From Paludisphaera borealis (GTDB lineage Bacteria > Planctomycetota > Planctomycetia > Isosphaerales > Isosphaeraceae): a DNA stretch of 64,000 nt. Below the pieces are notes generated by a model, which saw only the letters and a program-made list of their open reading frames with translations, did not search any database and was not told the origin of the DNA. Below, in pieces: positions 1 through 23,814 of this stretch. The stretch spans positions 2,728,001 to 2,792,000 of the forward strand of contig NZ_CP019082.1 in NCBI RefSeq assembly GCF_001956985.1, in the 5' to 3' direction. The position numbers and the translations under genes were made by a program. The stretch's first letter is position 1. Each line of letters begins with the position of its first letter.

Positions 1-118
1 GACCCCCTCATCCGACCCTCGGCTGACTTGTCTCGCAAGGAGGGAAGGCATGCTCGCGGCAGTCTGTTTTGATGACTTTCCGCAACACGGTGCTTGAGGT
101 GACGTCGTCTACGGATGG

Positions 119-748
119 TCACGCCCCGCGCCCGTCGGCTTCGGCTCCCGCACGGACGAGGGCTTCGGCTTCCGACTCGTCGGAGTCGGCTGGGTCGAAC
201 CCGATCTGACCCTTTCGGGCACCGGCTTTGGTGAAGAGCTTGGCGATCAGGGTTCCGCCGCGGAAGAGTCGGAGCAGCGAGGGGATCGGCAGGTTGTCGA
301 TGTGGCTGTACCACTCGGTGACCATCCGGGTGAAGTCGAGCATCTTTTCGAGCTGCTCGCGCGTGTATTGCTCCGACTCGTCCCCCGCCTTGGCTTCGCG
401 GACGCAGTTTTCGAGCAGCAGGATGGTCGGGTCCATCTCGCGCCGCTTGCGCTCGGCCATGATGACGCGGAACGTCTCCATCACATCCTTGAGCGCCTCG
501 AAACGGTCGCGGCGGTCGCCGATGATGTGGACGCGACGCACCACGCCCCAGGTGATCAGCTCGCGAAGGCTCGTCGAAACGTTCGAACGGCTGACGTCGA
601 GGAGCTTGCTGATCTCCTCGGCGTCCAGCGGCGAGGGCGAGACGAACAGCAAGGCGTGAACCTGGGCCATCGTCCGGTTGATGCCCCAGGCCTGCCCCAT
701 CTCTCCCCAGTGAAGCACGAATTTCTGCGCGGCCGGTGTGAGCGTCAC
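119..748 (-). CDS. GbsR/MarR-family winged-helix transcriptional regulator
   Basis: A DNA-binding regulator of the GbsR-like branch of MarR. The N-terminal signature LTPAAQKFVLHWGEMGQAWGI is followed by a winged helix (AEEISKLLDVSRSNVSTSLREL, then a wing with RRVHIIGDRRDRFEAL), a helical dimerisation region and an acidic tail. Family members usually begin just before the LTPAQQ-type motif, which points to the GTG at 748 with AGGGCGG upstream. Longer in-frame starts exist (ATG 793, TTG 817), but they lie inside a good promoter and a dyad operator, so I prefer 748. It lies downstream of msrB on the same strand, 102 bp away, and probably has its own promoter. The effector is unknown; osmotic or redox genes nearby would be plausible targets. 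Family call is firm, start moderate. Confidence 0.82.
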   Translation of the reverse strand: MTLTPAAQKFVLHWGEMGQAWGINRTMAQVHALLFVSPSPLDAEEISKLLDVSRSNVSTSLRELITWGVVRRVHIIGDRRDRFEALKDVMETFRVIMAERKRREMDPTILLLENCVREAKAGDESEQYTREQLEKMLDFTRMVTEWYSHIDNLPIPSLLRLFRGGTLIAKLFTKAGARKGQIGFDPADSDESEAEALVRAGAEADGRGA

Positions 749-776
749 GGTTGATACCGCCCTGTCTGGTAAAACA

Positions 777-817
777 GTTTCTACAGAAATCATACTCCCT
801 GTGAAACGGTCGAACAA
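777..817 (-). promoter_or_regulatory. Promoter and dyad operator of the GbsR-like gene
   Basis: On the minus strand TTGTTC (817-812) and TATGAT (794-789) are separated by 17 bp. An imperfect inverted repeat overlaps the -10 region: on the plus strand GTTTCTACAG (777-786), 12 bp, then CTGTGAAAC (799-807). MarR/GbsR regulators commonly repress their own promoters through such dyads, so autoregulation is likely. This is inferred from sequence only. Confidence 0.5.
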
Positions 818-850
818 GCAGGCGAAACCTCCCCCGAGCGCGGCTTCCGT

Positions 851-1423
851 TTATTCCGGCTTGGCTTTCGCGGCTGGTTCCCGGCCTTGCGAGCCGGCTC
901 GCTCCTCGAAGTCGAGCGACGCCGAGTTCAGACAATAGCGCAGGCCGGTGGGCTCGGGACCGTCTTCGAAGACGTGTCCGAGGTGGGCCTTGCAGTTGCG
1001 GCAGACGACTTCGTTCCGGCTCATGAAGAGGCTGGAATCGGTCTCGGTCTCGATCTTCTTTTCGGCGATCGGCTGCCAGAAGCTGGGCCAGCCGGTGCCG
1101 GACTCGTACTTGGTCGACGAGTCGAACAGCGGCTCGCCGCAGCAGACGCACTTGTAAACGCCTTCGTGCTTGTTGTTCCAGTATTTGCCGGTGAAGGCGC
1201 GCTCGGTCCCCTTCTCGCGCGTGACGTGGTATTGCTCGGGCGTGAGCTTGCCGCGCCAAGGGTCGGCCTTTTCGCTCGCGTCGTTGTTCGCCATGATCGT
1301 CGACCTCCCGTCGGTTGAAGGTTGCTGCGTCAGGTCGGCCGTCCAGAAGGCCGCCGCGCCGGCCAGAACGACCGTCGCCCCGACCAGAAGTTTGAAGCCC
1401 TTCGGCAAGTTCCCTGTCATCAT
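851..1423 (-). CDS. msrB: Peptide-methionine (R)-S-oxide reductase, membrane-anchored form possible
   Basis: Reduces methionine-R-sulfoxide in proteins. The zinc-binding CxxC pairs are CVCCG and CRNC, the family core is [12 protein letters not shown], and the catalytic cysteine lies in [10 protein letters not shown]. From ATG 1423 the product is 190 residues with a hydrophobic N-terminal segment ([16 protein letters not shown]), suggesting a signal anchor. A second in-frame ATG at 1294 (MANND) has a strong GGGAGG Shine-Dalgarno 9 nt upstream and would give a 147-residue soluble enzyme, the usual MsrB length. Both starts may be used. It sits between an aldehyde dehydrogenase (116 bp upstream) and a regulator, all on one strand. 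The long upstream extension of this frame is a shadow of the dehydrogenase. Confidence 0.92.
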
Positions 1424-1539
1424 CGGTCCTGCTCCGTGCCTGCCGCCGAGGAACTCGGCTCGGTTCCATCCATTGTATTCACGATCCGGGCCGCAATCGC
1501 GGCGATCATCCGAAATCGACCGCGCGAACGCCTCGAGCT

Positions 1540-3042
1540 TCACGCGCGACGGTGGAACATCCAGCGGTAGAAACCCAGAAACTTGTCGACCGTCCCGCCG
1601 CGCGAATACGGGAATAACTGGGGCCGGAAGCCCCCCGCGCTTCGTTCGAACAGAACCTGCGGCGCGACGAATTCGCGGAGCCCCAGCTCGCCGTGCGTCC
1701 GCCCGTAACCGCTCGACTTGAAGCCGCCGAACGGGGCCGAGGCCGAGGCCGTCGGCGCAACCGCCTCGTTGACGCAGACCATGCCAGCCTCGATCCGCCG
1801 GGCGATCGCGCGCGCAGCGCGCCTGTCGCGGCCCCAGACGCTTGCCGCGAGAGCCATGTTGCTGGAATTGGCCGCCGCGATCGCGGCCTCGGCGTCGTCG
1901 ACGCCCCGGATCAGCACGACCGGCCCGAACGCCCCTTCGAGCGCTCGTTCCGGCTCGGGCGACCGGGCCGAGAGGAGCGTCGGCGCGTAGAACGAGCCCG
2001 GCCGGTCGAGCGGTTCGCCGCCGGCGAGGACCTCGGCGCCCGCCTCGACGGTCGCGCGGATCGTCCGGTCGAACCGGTCGCGGGCCGGATCGTTGATCAT
2101 CGGCCCGACGTCGACGCCCGGCTCGGCCGGATCGCCGACCCTCAGCTTGCGGATCTCGGCCGCGAACGCCTCGGCCCAGGGGCGGGCGTCGCCGACTACG
2201 ATGATCCGCTTCACCGCTACGCAGGTCTGGCCGCATCCCACGAACGCCGACCAGACGATCGCGCGCACGGTGCTCTCGACGGGCGCGTCCGGCAGGATGA
2301 TCGCCGGATCGAAGCCGGAAAGCTCGACGACCGCCGGAATCCCCCGGCCGGCGAGGGTCGAGAGCACCCGCCGTCCGGTCTCAACGCCGCCAGTGAATAT
2401 CGCCTTGTCGATGTTCGACTCAAGGAGCGCCTGACCCACTTCGCCCCGGCCGTAAACGGCCGCGACCAGCCCCGGCGGCGTTCCCGCTTCCTCCAGGCTT
2501 TGCTGGAGCTTTTCGCCGCAAGCGATCGCCAGCTCCGACGGCTTCCAGACCACCGCGTTGCCCCCCGCGAGCGCCTGGGCGATCGGGGCCGCGTTGAGGA
2601 AGAGCGGGTAATTCCAGGTGCCGACGATCCCGACGACGCCGTAAGGGGTCCATCGCAGCCGGCCCGTCGGCGTCAGCAGCCAGCGCTGCCACGACGGCCC
2701 GATTCGCTCGTCGGCGAGCAGCTTGCCGGACCGCTTGACGGTCCATCGGAGCGCGTCGAGGGTGGGGATCAGGTCGCCGGCCATCGCCTCGGTCGCAGGC
2801 TTGCCGATCTCGTCGCGGATCAGGTCCGACCACGCGCGGGCGTCGCGGCCGAGAATCCGCCACCAGTCGGCCAGCACCATCCGGCGCTCGTTCCAGGGCC
2901 GCGCGGCCCATCCGGCCTGCGCGTCGCCGGCGCGACCGACGATCGCGGCGACCGCGTCGGGCGACGTCGCCGCGGCCCGGCCGACCTCGGCGCCGGAAGC
3001 CGGGTTTCGGGTTGCCAGAACGTCGTCGATCGTCACGGACAT
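1540..3042 (-). CDS. Aldehyde dehydrogenase family protein (NAD(P)+-dependent)
   Basis: A 500-residue ALDH-superfamily enzyme that oxidises an aldehyde to a carboxylate. Seen in order: the Rossmann-region signature [15 protein letters not shown], the cofactor loop [11 protein letters not shown], the glutamate in VVELSGFD (family consensus ELGGKD, so the second G and the K are changed), the nucleophilic cysteine in [13 protein letters not shown] and the C-terminal [16 protein letters not shown] 3042 follows GAGGGGAGAGGA and is preferred over longer in-frame starts. The C-terminal tail ([15 protein letters not shown]) is amphipathic and arginine-rich and may touch the membrane. The aldehyde substrate cannot be read from the sequence. 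Confidence 0.9.
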
Positions 3043-3548
3043 GACTTCCTCTCCCCTCGCGAAATCCCCCGAGGTCCTGGGGCGGCGCCGGTCCCGCCGG
3101 GCCTCGGATACGTCGACAAGCATAGCAGAATGATCGGCGGTGCGGAGACGCGGAAGTGATGTTCCGCCGACGCCACGCGTACGAACTTTTCGATGCCGAG
3201 GAGCGTATCCGTCGATGAGAAATCGATCATTCTTGGTGGACAACCGGGTCGCTCTTGTTATGATCAAGAATTGTTAAATGGCGGCGACTGGCTTCCCTCC
3301 CGAAGCGTTCGGCCGGTTTTCACCTTGGCCGTGGCGGTTTCATGGAGTCTGGAAGGGTTCGGCGCCGCTTGATCTTTCCGGCCCACCCACCCACCTGAGT
3401 CGTGGCTCGTATGGAACCTCTCCATCAACCGAGATTCGGCGGAAGCCGATAGAGGCTCGCGGACCTTGCGCCGGCCCCGTCGCCGCGCGCCTCGGTTGAT
3501 TTTTGGATAGTCCGTTCCGGGTGTGACTCGCAAAATTGGAGCAAGCCC
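3043..3548. other. Non-coding interval between ALDH and Gfo/Idh genes
   Basis: About 505 bp separate the divergent ALDH and oxidoreductase genes. I see no convincing gene: the 73-codon plus-strand ORF at 3278-3499 has no ribosome-binding site or recognisable domain. The part around 3170-3290 is AT-richer and holds a promoter candidate. A GGAGC Shine-Dalgarno lies just before the 3549 start. Confidence 0.6.
3236..3264 (+). promoter_or_regulatory. Candidate sigma70-type promoter
   Basis: TGGACA (3236-3241) and TATGAT (3259-3264) are 17 bp apart, each one base from consensus, in an AT-rich patch. It points towards the oxidoreductase at 3549 and would give a leader of about 280 nt. Confidence 0.4.
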
Positions 3549-4928
<1,380 letters not shown>

Positions 4929-4964
4929 GCCGAACCGGTTCGAGCTTCTCACTGGCAACATCGC

Positions 4965-5002
4965 ACGTCCCGTCCGGCCGACCGCCGGGCGGGACGTTTT
5001 TT
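4965..5002 (+). terminator. Rho-independent terminator after the Gfo/Idh gene
   Basis: A 13-bp stem with one mismatch (ACGTCCCGTCCGG at 4965-4977 pairing with CCGGGCGGGACGT at 4985-4997) is followed at once by a run of T and then GTTT. The geometry is typical of an intrinsic terminator. Confidence 0.85.
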
Positions 5003-5028
5003 GTTTCAAGTCCTGGGCATAAAGGCGC

Positions 5029-5361
5029 ATGGAGAAACGGCGTATCCTTCATGAATTTCTGCGCCTCTTGCCGATCGTGTGCAGCATCGCTCTCACCGTG
5101 TGGGAGGTCAAACTGTATTACGATTTCAAGCACGGGAGGGACTCATTCGACCATGTCATTGCCGTGGGACGGGCAGGCATGGGGGCTGAGGCGTTTGTAG
5201 ATTTCATCGTGTTTCTCGTGGCGATCACAGCCTTGTCGATACACATACGGATCGCACGAAAGCAGTCGCTCAACCTCATCCCAGTCTGGATATGCGTTGT
5301 GATCAGGCCGGTGCTGCTGATCCTTGCCTTATATTTCGCCCTCGATCTCCTGCCTTCTTAG
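5029..5361 (+). CDS. Small membrane protein of unknown function
   Basis: A 110-residue protein with three likely membrane helices (LLPIVCSIALTVWEV, AFVDFIVFLVAITALSI, and PVWICVVIRPVLLILALYFAL). No recognised family. The DNA is clearly less GC-rich than its neighbours, which may mean it was acquired. Its TAG stop spans the left junction of the IS5-family element: the TTA target duplication supplies TA and the first base of the element supplies G. Removing the element and one target copy also gives TAG, so the insertion left the protein unchanged. AAAGG lies just before the ATG. Expression is unverified. Confidence 0.6.
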   Translation: MEKRRILHEFLRLLPIVCSIALTVWEVKLYYDFKHGRDSFDHVIAVGRAGMGAEAFVDFIVFLVAITALSIHIRIARKQSLNLIPVWICVVIRPVLLILALYFALDLLPS

Positions 5362-6295
5362 AGGCTATCCCGTAATGATGTCCTGGTTTTTATGGTACTT
5401 GAACGGGATCGCCGGCCTTGAGCGATCGGGCTTCAAGAACTTGAGCATGCGATGAATAGAGCTGATGCGGATCATCGACTCGCTGCTCTCGGCGTGGTGC
5501 TCGTAATTCCGACTGTGTCGCCGATGCCGCCCCAGCCAGGCGAACGTCCGCTCCACCACCCAGCGCCTCGGCAGCTTCACAAACCCTTGGCTTCCCGGCG
5601 GCCGCTCCACGACCTCGATCCTGTACCCGGCCGAGGCCTCCGCCAGCCAGCCGTCGAGGTGGTGGTTGCGATACTTGCCGTCGCCCCAGACCAACGCCAA
5701 CCGGCTTCGATGCTCGGCCGTCAGCCGCCCCAGCACCTGGGGGGCGTGCGTCCCGTCGTCGGCGGACGCCGCCGAGACCGCCACGACCAGCAGCAACCCC
5801 AGCGTATCCACGATGATATGTCGTTTCACGCCGGTCAGCTTCTTGCCGCCGTCGTAGCCCCGTTCGCCCCCTGTCTCGGTCCCCTTGACCGTCTGGCTGT
5901 CGATGCTCCCGGCGCTTGGGGACGGCTCCCGCCCGGCCGTCGTGCGGACCTGGCGGCGCAGGGCGTCCAGGATGAGTTGCCATGTGCCGTCGTCCCGCCA
6001 CTGGGCGAAGTGGTTGTAGACGGTGCTCTTGGCCGGCAGGTCGTGCGGCAGCATATCCCACTGGCACCCCGAGCGGTTGAGGTAGAGGATGGCATTGAGC
6101 ACCTCCCGCATGTCGTTGGTCCGGGGCCGTCCGACCTGGGGAACGGGGATCAAGGGCTCGACGATCGCCCACTGTTCGTCGGTCAGGTCGGACGGGTAGG
6201 GCTTACGCATCGAACGGTGCTCCTGCGGCGATGAATCCTGCGAACCTCCTGGGAGGACAAGAGTTTACGATCTTCTAGAATTACGGGATAGCCTC
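5361..6295. mobile_element. Complete IS5-family insertion sequence, 935 bp
   Basis: Perfect 16-bp terminal inverted repeats, GAGGCTATCCCGTAAT at 5361-5376 and its complement at 6280-6295, flank one transposase gene. A TTA direct duplication at 5358-5360 and 6296-6298 is the target-site duplication; 3-bp TNA duplications are typical of IS5 subgroups such as IS1031/IS427. The ends, duplication and reading frame are all intact, suggesting a fairly recent insertion. Confidence 0.93.
5365..6210 (-). CDS. IS5-family DDE transposase
   Basis: A 281-residue transposase in a single frame. It starts with the IS5-like [22 protein letters not shown] (DUF4096-type DNA-binding domain), then the DDE domain: first Asp in SIDSQTVKG, second Asp in VWGDGKYR, Glu in [17 protein letters not shown]. 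It catalyses cut-and-paste movement of the surrounding element. The stop codon lies inside the left terminal inverted repeat. There is no frameshift or internal stop, so the gene should be functional. Confidence 0.95.
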
Positions 6296-18931: not shown

Positions 18932-19234
18932 ATGCACTTGACACCGCAAGAACGCGACAAATTGCTGATCTTCACGGCCGCCCAGGTCGCCGCGGCGCGC
19001 AAGGCGCGGGGGCTGAAGCTCAACGTCCCCGAGGCCACGGCGTACATCACGGCTCAACTGCTGGAGCTGGCGCGCGACGGCAAGTCGGTCGACGAGATCA
19101 TGAGCGCCGGCTGCGAGATCCTCGGCCGCAACGACGTGATGGAAGGCGTCCCGGAGATGATCCACTCGATCCAGGTCGAGCCGACGTTCCCCGACGGCAG
19201 CAAGCTGGTCACGGTCCACGAGCCGATCCGCTGA
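18932..19234 (+). CDS. ureA: Urease subunit gamma
   Basis: A 100-residue gamma subunit of nickel urease, which hydrolyses urea to ammonia and carbamate. The whole length matches the family: [56 protein letters not shown] and [18 protein letters not shown] at the end. GGAG lies 9 nt before ATG. It is the first gene of ureABC-F-G-D on the plus strand. Confidence 0.97.
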
Positions 19235-19298
19235 GCCGTTTCGAGCCGAGTTCGACGGTAGCCCCCCACATCCTTCCGCGCTTTCAGGGAGTCCGCAC

Positions 19299-19676
19299 AT
19301 GATTCCGGGCGAGTATTTCTTCGACGGCGACGACATCGAGCTCAATCCGGGCCGGCCGAACATCACGATCACGGTCAACAACACCGGCGACCGTCCGGTG
19401 CAGGTCGGCGCGCACTACCACTTCTTCGAGACGAATCGCGAGCTGGTCTTCGACCGCGAGAAGGCGTATGGGATGCACCTCGACCTGCCGAGCGGCACCG
19501 CGGTGCGGTTCGAGCCCGGCGACGTCAAGGACGTCCAGCTCGTCGCTTACGGCGGCCGACGGGTGGTGTACGGGTTCAACGGCCTGGTGATGGGCCGCCT
19601 CGACGATCCTTACACGCGCCAGATGAGCATCAAGCGGTGCATGGACCAGAAGTACGGCCACAAGCCCCAGAAATGA
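19299..19676 (+). CDS. ureB: Urease subunit beta
   Basis: A 125-residue beta subunit of urease. Family motifs: [53 protein letters not shown], and [13 protein letters not shown]. It forms the trimeric core with the gamma and alpha subunits. AGGGAG precedes ATG, and the gap from ureA is 64 bp. The gene is separate rather than fused to ureA, as usual outside Helicobacter. Confidence 0.97.
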
Positions 19677-19734
19677 GCCACGGCCTGGCGTCCCCCCTCG
19701 CATTCCTCATCTCCAAAGGAAAGAGACCCATCCC

Positions 19735-21108
19735 ATGAGTTTGCGGCTGACTCGACAGGCTTACGCGTACAAATACGGACCGACCACCGGCGACCGGATT
19801 CGACTGGCCGACACCGAGCTGATCATCGAGATCGAGCAGGATTACACCACTCCGGGCAACGAGGCGGTCTTCGGCGGCGGCAAGTCGATCCGCGACGGCC
19901 AGTCGCAATGCCCGTTCGACGAGCCGATGAGCCCCGAGCATTGCGACCTCGTGATCACCAACGCGGTGGTCATCGACCACTGGGGGATCGTCAAGGGGGA
20001 CATCGGCATCCGCAACGGGCGGATCGTGGCCGTGGGCATGGCCGGCAACCCGCTGACGCAGGACGACGTCGACCCCCGGCTGGTGATCGGGCCGGGAACC
20101 GAGGTCATCGCCGGCGAAGGCATGATCTGCACGGCGGGAGGGATCGACAGCCACATCCACTTCATCTGCCCGCAGCAGGTCGAGACGGCCGTCGCCTCGG
20201 GGATCACCACGATGCTCGGCGGCGGCACCGGCTCGGCCACCGGGACGTGGGCGACCACCTGCACGCCGGGCGCGTGGAACATCATGCGGATGCTCCAGGC
20301 GGCCGAGGGGCTGCCGGTCAACCTCGGTTTCATGGGCAAGGGGAACGGCAGCCTGGCGGAGCCGCTCCGCGACCAGATCCGCGCCGGGGCCTGCGGCCTG
20401 AAGCTCCACGAGGACTGGGGCACCACCCTCGAAGTCATCGACACCGCGCTCAAGGTGGCCGACGAGTTCGACATCCAGATCGCGATCCACACCGACACTC
20501 TCAACGAGTGCGGGTTCATCGACGACACGATCGCCGCGATCGCCGGCCGGGCGATCCACACGTTCCACACCGAGGGCGCCGGCGGCGGCCACGCGCCGGA
20601 CATCATCAAGATCGCCGGCTGCCCCAACGTCCTGCCCTCCAGCACCAACCCGACCCGGCCGTTCACCAAGAACACGATCGACGAGCATCTCGACATGCTG
20701 ATGGTGTGCCATCACCTGTCGCGGAAGATCCCCGAGGACGTGGCGTTCGCCGAGAGCCGCATCCGGGCCGAGACGATCGGCGCCGAGGACGTGTTCCACG
20801 ACCGCGGCATCATCAGCATGATGAGCTCCGACTCGCAGGCGATGGGCCGGGTCGGCGAGGTCGTAATGCGGACCTGGCAGACCGCCCACAAGATGAAGGT
20901 GCAGCTCGGCGCCATGGCATCGGACAGCGCCCGCAACGACAACGAGCGGGTCAAGCGGTACGTCGCCAAGTACACGATCAACCCGGCGGTGGCCCAGGGG
21001 ATCGCCCGCCACGTCGGCAGCATCGAGGGGGGCAAGCTCGCCGACCTGGTGCTGTACGAGCCGGCCTACTTCGGCGTCAAGCCGTTCCTGGTGATCAAGG
21101 GGGGATGA
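19735..21108 (+). CDS. ureC: Urease subunit alpha, N-terminal 457 residues (frame broken)
   Basis: The catalytic subunit, holding the dinickel centre. All active-site residues are in this part: the His pair in DSHIHFICP, the carbamylated Lys and following His in GLKLHEDWG, His in IHTDTLNE, His in [12 protein letters not shown], the flap Cys in MVCHHLS and the Asp in SSDSQAMGR. The ORF stops at TGA 21106-21108, about 115 residues short of the usual ~570. The missing part continues in the -1 frame from ATG 21105. The break is at six consecutive G (21099-21104), where a seventh would restore one frame. This may be a sequencing or assembly error, a true mutation, a -1 slip, or a genuine split gene. 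Confidence 0.93.
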
Positions 21109-21455
21109 TCGTTTACGCCCAGATGGGCGACCCCAACGCCAGCATCCCGACGCCCCAGCCGGTCTACATGCGGCCCCAGTTCGCCGCCTACGGCCGGGCG
21201 CTTTCGAAATCGTGCATGACGTTCGTCTCGAAGGCGTCGATCGAAGCCGGCATCGTCGACCGCTACGGCCTGCAACGCGAGGTCGTCGCGGTTGAGAACT
21301 GCCGCAACATCGGCAAGAAGGACATGCGGCGGAACGAGGCGACGCCCGAGATCAAGGTCGATCCCGACACTTATCAGGTGTGGGTCGATGGCGAGAAAGT
21401 CGGCAGCGATCCGCTCGACAAGCTACCGATGGCCCAGCGCTATTTCCTCTTCTGA
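21105..21455 (+). CDS. ureC: Urease subunit alpha, C-terminal 116 residues in shifted frame
   Basis: This frame encodes the expected C-terminus of Ure[24 protein letters not shown] at the start, [23 protein letters not shown] in the middle and PMAQRYFLF at the end. The ATG overlaps the stop of the upstream part as ATGA, an arrangement used for coupled translation. The lengths 457+116 add up to a normal alpha subunit, with no residues apparently lost. If the frameshift is an artefact, the true gene is 19735-21455. It contributes structural elements only; no nickel ligand lies here. Confidence 0.85.
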
Positions 21456-21471
21456 TGAAGGACGCTGGACG

Positions 21472-22158
21472 ATGAACCTTTCCCTGCTCCAGATCGCCGA
21501 CTCGGCGCTGCCGATCAGCGGCTACACTCACTCGTGGGGCCTCGAAGCGGCGATCGCCCGCGGCCTGGTCCACGACCCCGAGAGCCTGGAGCGCTGGACC
21601 CGACACTGGCTCCGGACGTCGCTGGGCCCCTTCGAGGGGGTCCTGGCGGCTTCCGGCTGCCGGTCCGCCCGCGCGGGGAGCCCCGCCGAGCTGCGCGCGT
21701 TGAACAACCTGGCCGACGCCTCGATCATGCCTCCCTCGACCCGCCGCGCCAGCCGCGAGATGGGGGAGCAGCTCCTCGCCCTGGGGACGACCTGGGCGTG
21801 GTGCTCCGGAGGCCTCGCGCCATTCGTGGAACCCGCCCGAGAGGGTGAGGAACCGCCCAGGTGGCACCATCCGGTCGCCTTCGGCCTGCTCGGCGCCCTG
21901 GCCGGCGGCGAGCCCGAGGACGTCCTGACGGTCTACCTGCACCAGGCGGTAATGGGTATGGTGGGGGCTGGGGTCCGGGCCGTCCCCGTCGGCCACACCC
22001 ACGGCCAACAGATCCTGGCCTACCTCCACGGCGACATCCGAACCATGGCCGCGGACCTCGTCAACCGCGCCCCGGAAACCGCCGGCGGCGGTTGCCCGTT
22101 TTATGAGATTCTCTGCGATGAACAGACTCGACTCTACGCACGCATGTTCCGTTCTTGA
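21472..22158 (+). CDS. ureF: Urease accessory protein UreF
   Basis: A 228-residue all-helical chaperone that, with UreD/H and UreG, delivers nickel to apo-urease and gates GTP hydrolysis by UreG. The family start [21 protein letters not shown] is clear, as are [25 protein letters not shown] and the C-terminal [17 protein letters not shown] lies 10 nt before ATG. It starts 16 bp after ureC and overlaps the likely ureG start. Confidence 0.94.
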
Positions 22159-22918
22159 TCCGCCGCCCGAACTGTCGGGCGGGCCCGCGGCGACGCGGCG
22201 ACGCGCCGGGCGATGGGGCGCGGCGTTCCACAAAGACCCCGACGGTTCCCACTCCCACGACCACATGGGGAGGCCCGGCCCGGCCCGCTACGCGGGGCCG
22301 ACGCGCAAGGTCTTCACCCTCGGCGTCGCCGGGCCGGTCGGCTCGGGCAAGACGGCGCTGGTCGAGGCGCTCTGCCGGGCCCTCTGGCCCGAGATCAACC
22401 TCGCCGTCATCACCAACGACATCTACACCCACGAGGACGCCGAGTTCCTCTCGCGCAGCGGGGTGCTGCCGGTGGAGCGGATCGTCGGCGTCCAGACCGG
22501 CGGCTGCCCGCACACCGCCATCCGCGACGACGCCAGCGCCAACCTGAGCGCCGTGGCCAACTTCCAGCGCCAGTTCCCCGACCTGAAGCTGGTCGTGGTC
22601 GAATCCGGCGGCGACAACCTCACGGCCGTCTTCTCGCGCGAGCTGGCCGATCGCTTCATTTTCGTCATCGATGTTGCTGAAGGGGACAAGATCCCCCGCA
22701 AGGGGGGGCCGGGAATTTGCTCCAGCGACCTGTTGATCATCAACAAGACGGACCTGGCGCCGCACGTGGGAGCCGACCTGGCGGTGATGGATCGCGACGC
22801 CCGGAAGATGCGGGGCGAGCGACCGTTCATGATGGTGAGCATCCGCAAGAAAGAAGGCGTCGAGGAGGTGGTCCAGTGGGTGCGCGAGCAACTCGCATCA
22901 CACGGGAAGAGTTCCTGA
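22103..22918 (+). CDS. ureG: Urease accessory GTPase UreG
   Basis: A SIMIBI-class GTPase for nickel insertion. P-loop [29 protein letters not shown], the metal-binding CPH of UreG in [25 protein letters not shown] and the guanine-specificity motif INKTDLAP are all present. A His-rich stretch ([12 protein letters not shown]) before the domain may store nickel. The start is uncertain: 22103 and 22118 (ATG, inside the ureF end) or 22265. I keep the longest because the His-rich part is typical. No ureE is present in the cluster, so this His-rich tail may partly stand in for it. Confidence 0.93.
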
Positions 22919-23814
22919 CGCCCCCCGAATTCCTCGGGCTTGAGTCGATCCACAACCCCGCCGCCCGCGTGGGCGGCGCGCGGATCGAGCTGATCCGCAC
23001 CGGCGACGAGACCCGCCTGGGCACCCGCTACCAGCAGATCCCCATGCGGATCTTCCCTCCGTTCGCGTTCCCGACCGAGCCGGCGGCGTTGCTCTATTTG
23101 ATCAACCTCACCGGCGGCCTGATGGACGGCGACGCCCACCTGGTCGAGCTCACGGCGAGGGCCGGCGCGCGGGCGTTGGTCACGGGACAGTCGGCCTCGC
23201 GAATCCATCCGGCCCTGGACAGTTACTCGACCCAGCAATGGGCCGTCACGGTCGAGGACGACGCCTGCCTCGTCGTCATGCCGGGCCCGGCGATTCCCTT
23301 CCAGGGCTGCCGCTACTACCAGCGGGCCCGCGTCGAGCTCGCGCCGCGCGCCCGGCTGGTCTGGGGCGACGTCTGGCTCCCCGGCCGCTACGACCGCGGC
23401 GTGCTCTCCGAGCGGTTCCAGTTCGATCGGATCGTCCAGGATCTGGAAGTCCGTCGCGAGGGCCGCCTGATCTATCGCGACCGGTTCCGATGGGACGGCC
23501 CCTGGACCGATGAGGAAGCCCACTGGTACTTCGGCGGCAACCTGGCGACCGCCAACCTGATCATCGCCGGGCCGACGCCCGAAACCGACGCCCTGCCCGC
23601 GGCCGGACCGGGCCTGCTGCGCTCGGTCTTCCCGCTCGACGTCGACGTCACCTGCGTGCGATGGTGCGGCCCGCCGACGGCCGTGACGACCGACCTCGCG
23701 AACGTCGCGCTACGAGTCGCCGGCTATTGGACCGACGGCCCCGGCGGCCGTCCCTGGCTCGTCGAGTCGGGGGGCCTCGCGCCCAATCACTGGTTCTCGC
23801 CGCCAGCCGGCTGA
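22876..23814 (+). CDS. ureD: Urease accessory protein UreD (UreH)
   Basis: A 312-residue scaffold of the UreDFG complex. Family motifs: [20 protein letters not shown] (usual TGGxxxGD), [33 protein letters not shown] and [13 protein letters not shown]. The GTG start at 22876 is supported by AGGAGG 7 nt upstream and overlaps the end of ureG by 43 bp, implying coupled translation. It is the last gene of the urease operon and precedes the second porin by 121 bp. Confidence 0.93.

Follow-up and report, generated by a model that had tools for sequence, protein, structure and literature searches.

A frame-split ureC in Paludisphaera borealis PX4T, probably one G short in the assembly

Passages of a study of PacBio assemblies from three high-G+C strains describe G/C homopolymers of 4–10 bp that are one base short (PMC11649196), and the authors of the GeneTack survey, in parts of their text, expect frame transitions that occur as singletons to be sequencing errors (PMC3711429). 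In Yersinia pestis, excerpts of PMC4773443 describe a mutation in ureD with loss of urease activity, and passages of PMC3017870 report genes of Blochmannia vafer with single indels in homopolymeric tracts that are otherwise in frame.

The frame-split ureC described here resembles each of these in part. It shares with the PacBio assemblies a single-base shortfall in a 4–10 bp G/C run, although those shortfalls were shown with independent reads, whereas we infer that of ureC. Like the GeneTack singletons, it breaks the frame in a single genome while homology continues through the break; that study differs in being a general survey, and the word 'urease' is absent from its main text. The Y. pestis operon likewise carries a small lesion in one gene, reportedly within a poly(G) tract, but the gene is another, the lesion occurs in all strains and it is accepted as real, whereas here there is one unverified assembly. 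The indels of B. vafer differ in lying in poly-A/T tracts of an AT-rich symbiont, which reportedly retains its urease cluster and in which transcriptional slippage possibly corrects them.

The split gene and its operon

P. borealis is a soil bacterium, and its genome as analysed here comprises 7,651,896 bases in three contigs, the main one of 7,497,544. The parts of the genome account that cover strain PX4T give a chromosome of 7.498 Mb and plasmids of 111,833 and 42,519 bases (PMC5352709). The window, that is, the whole stretch of 64,000 nucleotides that was analysed, contains a urease operon with the following features:

18932–19234, plus strand: ureA, gamma subunit (NCBIfam)
19299–19676, plus strand: ureB, beta subunit (NCBIfam)
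19735–21108, plus strand: head of ureC, 457 residues ending in VIKGG, stop codon TGA at 21106–21108
21099–21104, plus strand: run of six G at the frame break, read from the sequence
21105–21455, plus strand: tail of ureC in the −1 frame, 116 residues, overlapping the stop codon of the head as ATGA
21472–22158, plus strand: ureF (Pfam PF01730)
22103–22918, plus strand: ureG (TIGR00101)
22867–23814 (the stretch scanned, not an exact start), plus strand: ureD (Pfam PF01774)

As the first-pass annotation had described, UreC reads for 457 residues up to its TGA, with six G before the junction; the remaining residues, put there at about 115 and counted here as 116, follow in the −1 frame from the ATG at 21105–21107 to a C-terminus MAQRYFLF and a stop codon at 21453–21455. 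In an NCBIfam profile search, the head covered positions 2–452 and the tail positions 453–568 of the 568-position urease alpha family TIGR01792, a full-length match, though spread over two frames. Because the two parts abut exactly, a single base is missing and nothing else has been lost or duplicated, which bears out the earlier claim that no residues were lost. The C-terminal end of urease alpha chains in the PDB aligns with nearly the whole tail, and a codon-usage Viterbi script located the change of frame at 21102, within the G run. When the translation is read, all the active-site motifs of UreC lie in the head, in agreement with the earlier placing of the catalytic residues. A one-base lesion in a gene as well conserved as this one exceeds chance.

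Removal of any G from the codons GGG GGG ATG ATC yields GGG GGA TGA, so that the premature stop, the ATGA overlap and the heptamer G_GGG_GGA at 21099–21105, which fits the pattern X_XXZ_ZZN in frame, arise together. The overlap and the heptamer are thus forced by the loss of one base and carry no independent information.

The remainder of the operon, judged intact in the first-pass annotation, is indeed present, with ureA, ureB and ureG recognized by NCBIfam and ureF and ureD by Pfam; ureE is absent from it (window 18932–23814). The sole UreE_C match of the whole genome lies in a second urease operon (L234, G000:C1 1,260,001–1,270,000), which has UreE and an intact UreC and consists of ureA, ureB, ureC, ureE, ureF, a gene with a CobW/HypB/UreG domain and ureD. 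Its UreC is about 58% identical to that of the window over the head, and at the same codons its gene carries seven G, followed by ATG ATC.

ureC in relatives and selection on the two parts

Comparison with close relatives, suggested as a check in the first-pass annotation, covered 59 genomes, namely this one and 58 relatives. Orthologues of the window UreC occurred at 16 places in 15 relatives (77–86% identity), and a second type of urease at 12 places (56–59% identity), one of them within this genome. At all 28 UreC places, head and tail lie in one frame, the tail beginning one base further on than it does in the window, a result in favour of a homopolymer error and against programmed slippage or a two-chain subunit. 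These 28 include one match that spans only head residues 50–457 (L025) and two in which the tail match begins at residue 2, in register (L028 and L029); the rows G009:C21 (residues 1–77), G009:C272 and G055, each of them either fragmentary or something other than UreC, were excluded. Among the 15 orthologues L004–L018, the G run extends to the junction in three, with seven G in L013 and L018 and four in L007; in the other 12, several of which have an in-frame run of six G one base upstream, the base before the junction is not G.

Wider searches gave the same picture. In a collection of genome contigs, all 80 loci kept from 589 confirmed, among the matches listed, were contiguous, and at most four G adjoined the junction in each of these 80 listed loci. 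In a survey of 392 genomes of the phylum, in which up to three candidates per genome were scored and weak rows, at or below about 30 bits, and own-genome rows were dropped before counting, any UreC match at E ≤ 0.001 was found in 48 genomes and a strong match in 27 besides this one. UreC lies in one open frame in 25 of these 27, and ureC is split between frames in none of them. The match in G310 (L214, G310:C318) carries one in-frame TAG and that in G308 is divided between two contigs; neither is a frame split, yet neither is a clean intact copy. Conservation of the break in relatives, as programmed frameshifting would lead one to look for, was thus not observed, no homologue examined being frame-split.

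The tail shows no decay and is conserved as in intact genes: at 0.115, its mean pN against the 15 other sequences is the smallest among the 16 (others, 0.123–0.172), and its GC3 is 0.88. An ancient split with a decaying tail is ruled out by this lowest mean pN. The head has a mean pN of 0.110, against 0.078–0.096 in 13 others and 0.139–0.141 in L017 and L018, and its pN/pS to the orthologues is 0.277, compared with 0.187 for orthologue pairs. This raised ratio could reflect some relaxed constraint on this copy, and would favour a real loss. Private differences in the head number 18 when 14 sequences are compared (without L017 and L018) and 4 among all 16; they are spread along the head, in which no local patch of wrong residues was seen. 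In private residues, the head exceeds its orthologues and the tail has only one. Taken together, the selection data leave three readings of the split: it is not real, it arose very recently, or it is decoded through.

Error, mutation or recoding

We consider it about 75% probable that the split is a consensus error in the assembly. The deposited sequence of an ordinary ureC would have one G too few in the conserved Lys-Gly-Gly-Met-Ile stretch, and the living strain would make one uninterrupted alpha subunit. The first-pass annotation had left four options unranked; homopolymer error is now the best supported, because the reported sequencing was with PacBio only, the homologues examined are contiguous and the assembly contains further one-base breaks. 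The lesion also has the form expected of such an error, a single base in a G/C run of a gene that is otherwise intact. According to the parts of PMC5352709 that describe the work, PX4T was sequenced on a PacBio RSII with a single SMRT cell and assembled with HGAP2 from 524 Mb of reads; the word 'Illumina' is absent from the main text, and the account is one of long reads only. Our own division of the 524 Mb gives a read depth of about 68×. PacBio consensus at 68× is usually good. Also counting against an error, few breaks were sampled (five likely ones in 864 kb) and some may be real pseudogenes, and with a second complete urease operon the cell could tolerate a real loss.

The recent frameshift among the four options keeps some weight, though clearly less: the G run may have contracted by one base through replication slippage in the sequenced culture, giving a fresh null or slowly reversible allele. 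The second operon, with ureA, B, C, E and F, a ureG-like gene and ureD, would allow such an allele to be tolerated. G/C runs are established hotspots of replication slippage. The other breaks in the sampled genome, some of them clustered, and the raised pN/pS of the head point the same way. Against a real mutation, the undecayed tail means that it would have to be very recent, and the sequencing method reported for the strain is one that tends to produce this lesion as an error. A genuine six-G form from which this UreC is still produced, by −1 slippage or as two chains that assemble into an active urease, appears highly improbable; these two remaining options lack comparative support and their signals are by-products of a one-base loss. 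Ribosomal −1 frameshifting at G_GGG_GGA, just before the TGA, would yield a normal alpha subunit. In its favour, the heptamer fits and stands in the correct frame, slipping there would recover the conserved sequence, and the tail is constrained. The frame is split in no homologue examined, however, the base loss produces the heptamer automatically, and no unusual fold was found downstream (21106–21205, in a model free of pseudoknots: z = −0.43, with 74 of 200 shuffles folding as well), so we regard frameshifting as very unlikely. According to passages of a study in Escherichia coli, downstream structure is not present at every bacterial frameshift site; G_GG.G_GG.U stood at the bottom of the range of rates, with 0.018% in the absence of a stimulator (the value for ..A falling outside these passages), and the 21 motifs chosen there for efficiency and under-representation include no G_GG.G_GG.N (PMC4066793). 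A two-polypeptide alpha subunit, its second chain made by ATGA-coupled reinitiation, is the least likely of all, even though the ATG overlaps the TGA and the two parts retain all residues: no homologue examined has this arrangement, the overlap follows automatically from ATG ATC, and by eye the G run abuts the ATG without the usual spacing of a ribosome-binding site, which coupled reinitiation may not need. Transcriptional slippage was ruled out as the main reading, a single run of six G being below the usual length; according to parts of PMC3711429, such slippage often involves a homopolymer of at least eight bases, or two shorter runs together.

The observation itself is confirmed, but a biological feature is improbable and the finding probably ordinary. 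If the missing G is a consensus error, the matter is one of annotation only, and the labels pseudogene and split enzyme should be avoided for this urease. A six-G form that proved real and active would mean that the cell makes a recoded or two-chain urease alpha subunit alongside a normal one. We know of no such alpha subunit elsewhere, recoded or two-chain. None is named in the titles and abstract openings of the literature, among the matches listed. The literature searched, which included parts of PMC5845749 and did not extend to the species description, yielded no urease test of P. borealis.

Broken genes elsewhere in the assembly

Under the same reading of ureC as a consensus error, other broken genes of this assembly merit the same caution. 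We counted frame switches at which the upstream frame runs on for more than 50 nt before its stop; in ureC the stop comes only 3 nt after the switch, so that the measure misses ureC itself and the survey count is a lower bound. Such late-stop switches made up 0 of 6 in the window, 6 of 26 in a first sample of 400 kb of this genome and 2 of 42 in a second, 3 of 14 in the 198 kb flanking the window (all in L224), 0 of 44 in the drafts G005 and G004 (400 kb; drafts whose sequencing platform may differ) and 9 of 57 in G002, a genome of few contigs (400 kb). The survey shows a burden of frameshifts, which by itself does not discriminate error from mutation.

Five of the eight late-stop switches in the 864 kb of own samples, ureC apart, are likely to be true breaks. 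The two pieces of an LptF/LptG permease (L118) match one Pfam family, as do those of an ISAZO13 transposase (L160), broken between profile positions 105 and 109. In L121, an AMP-binding enzyme is broken between profile positions 178 and 180 and two more breaks lie between domains; these three breaks fall within 1.2 kb (L121 7908–9121, G000:C1 ~2,697,908–2,699,121), some 50 kb ahead of the break in ureC, and the gene that holds them looks like an MFS-acyltransferase-AMP-ligase fusion. The switches in L115, L133 and L164, judged by reading only, look like ordinary gene pairs.

Many switches also occur in L224 ~1–5750 (G000:C1 ~2,590,001–2,595,750), where the sequence resembles genes for NiFe hydrogenase and acyl-CoA synthetase. 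This stretch may be an eroding locus or real pseudogene, or a poor patch of assembly; near it, a break at a run of eight G looks more like the gain of a base than a loss. In G002, which belongs to the same genus, frame breaks affect PNPase (L179 3467) and PlsY (L190 17974). Of the nine late-stop switches there, these are the two that were scanned, that in PlsY splitting the protein inside one family and that in PNPase lying between adjacent domains, which suggests similar consensus errors in that genome. With breaks confirmed in it, G002 is no clean control, and breaks of this kind are not special to P. borealis PX4T.
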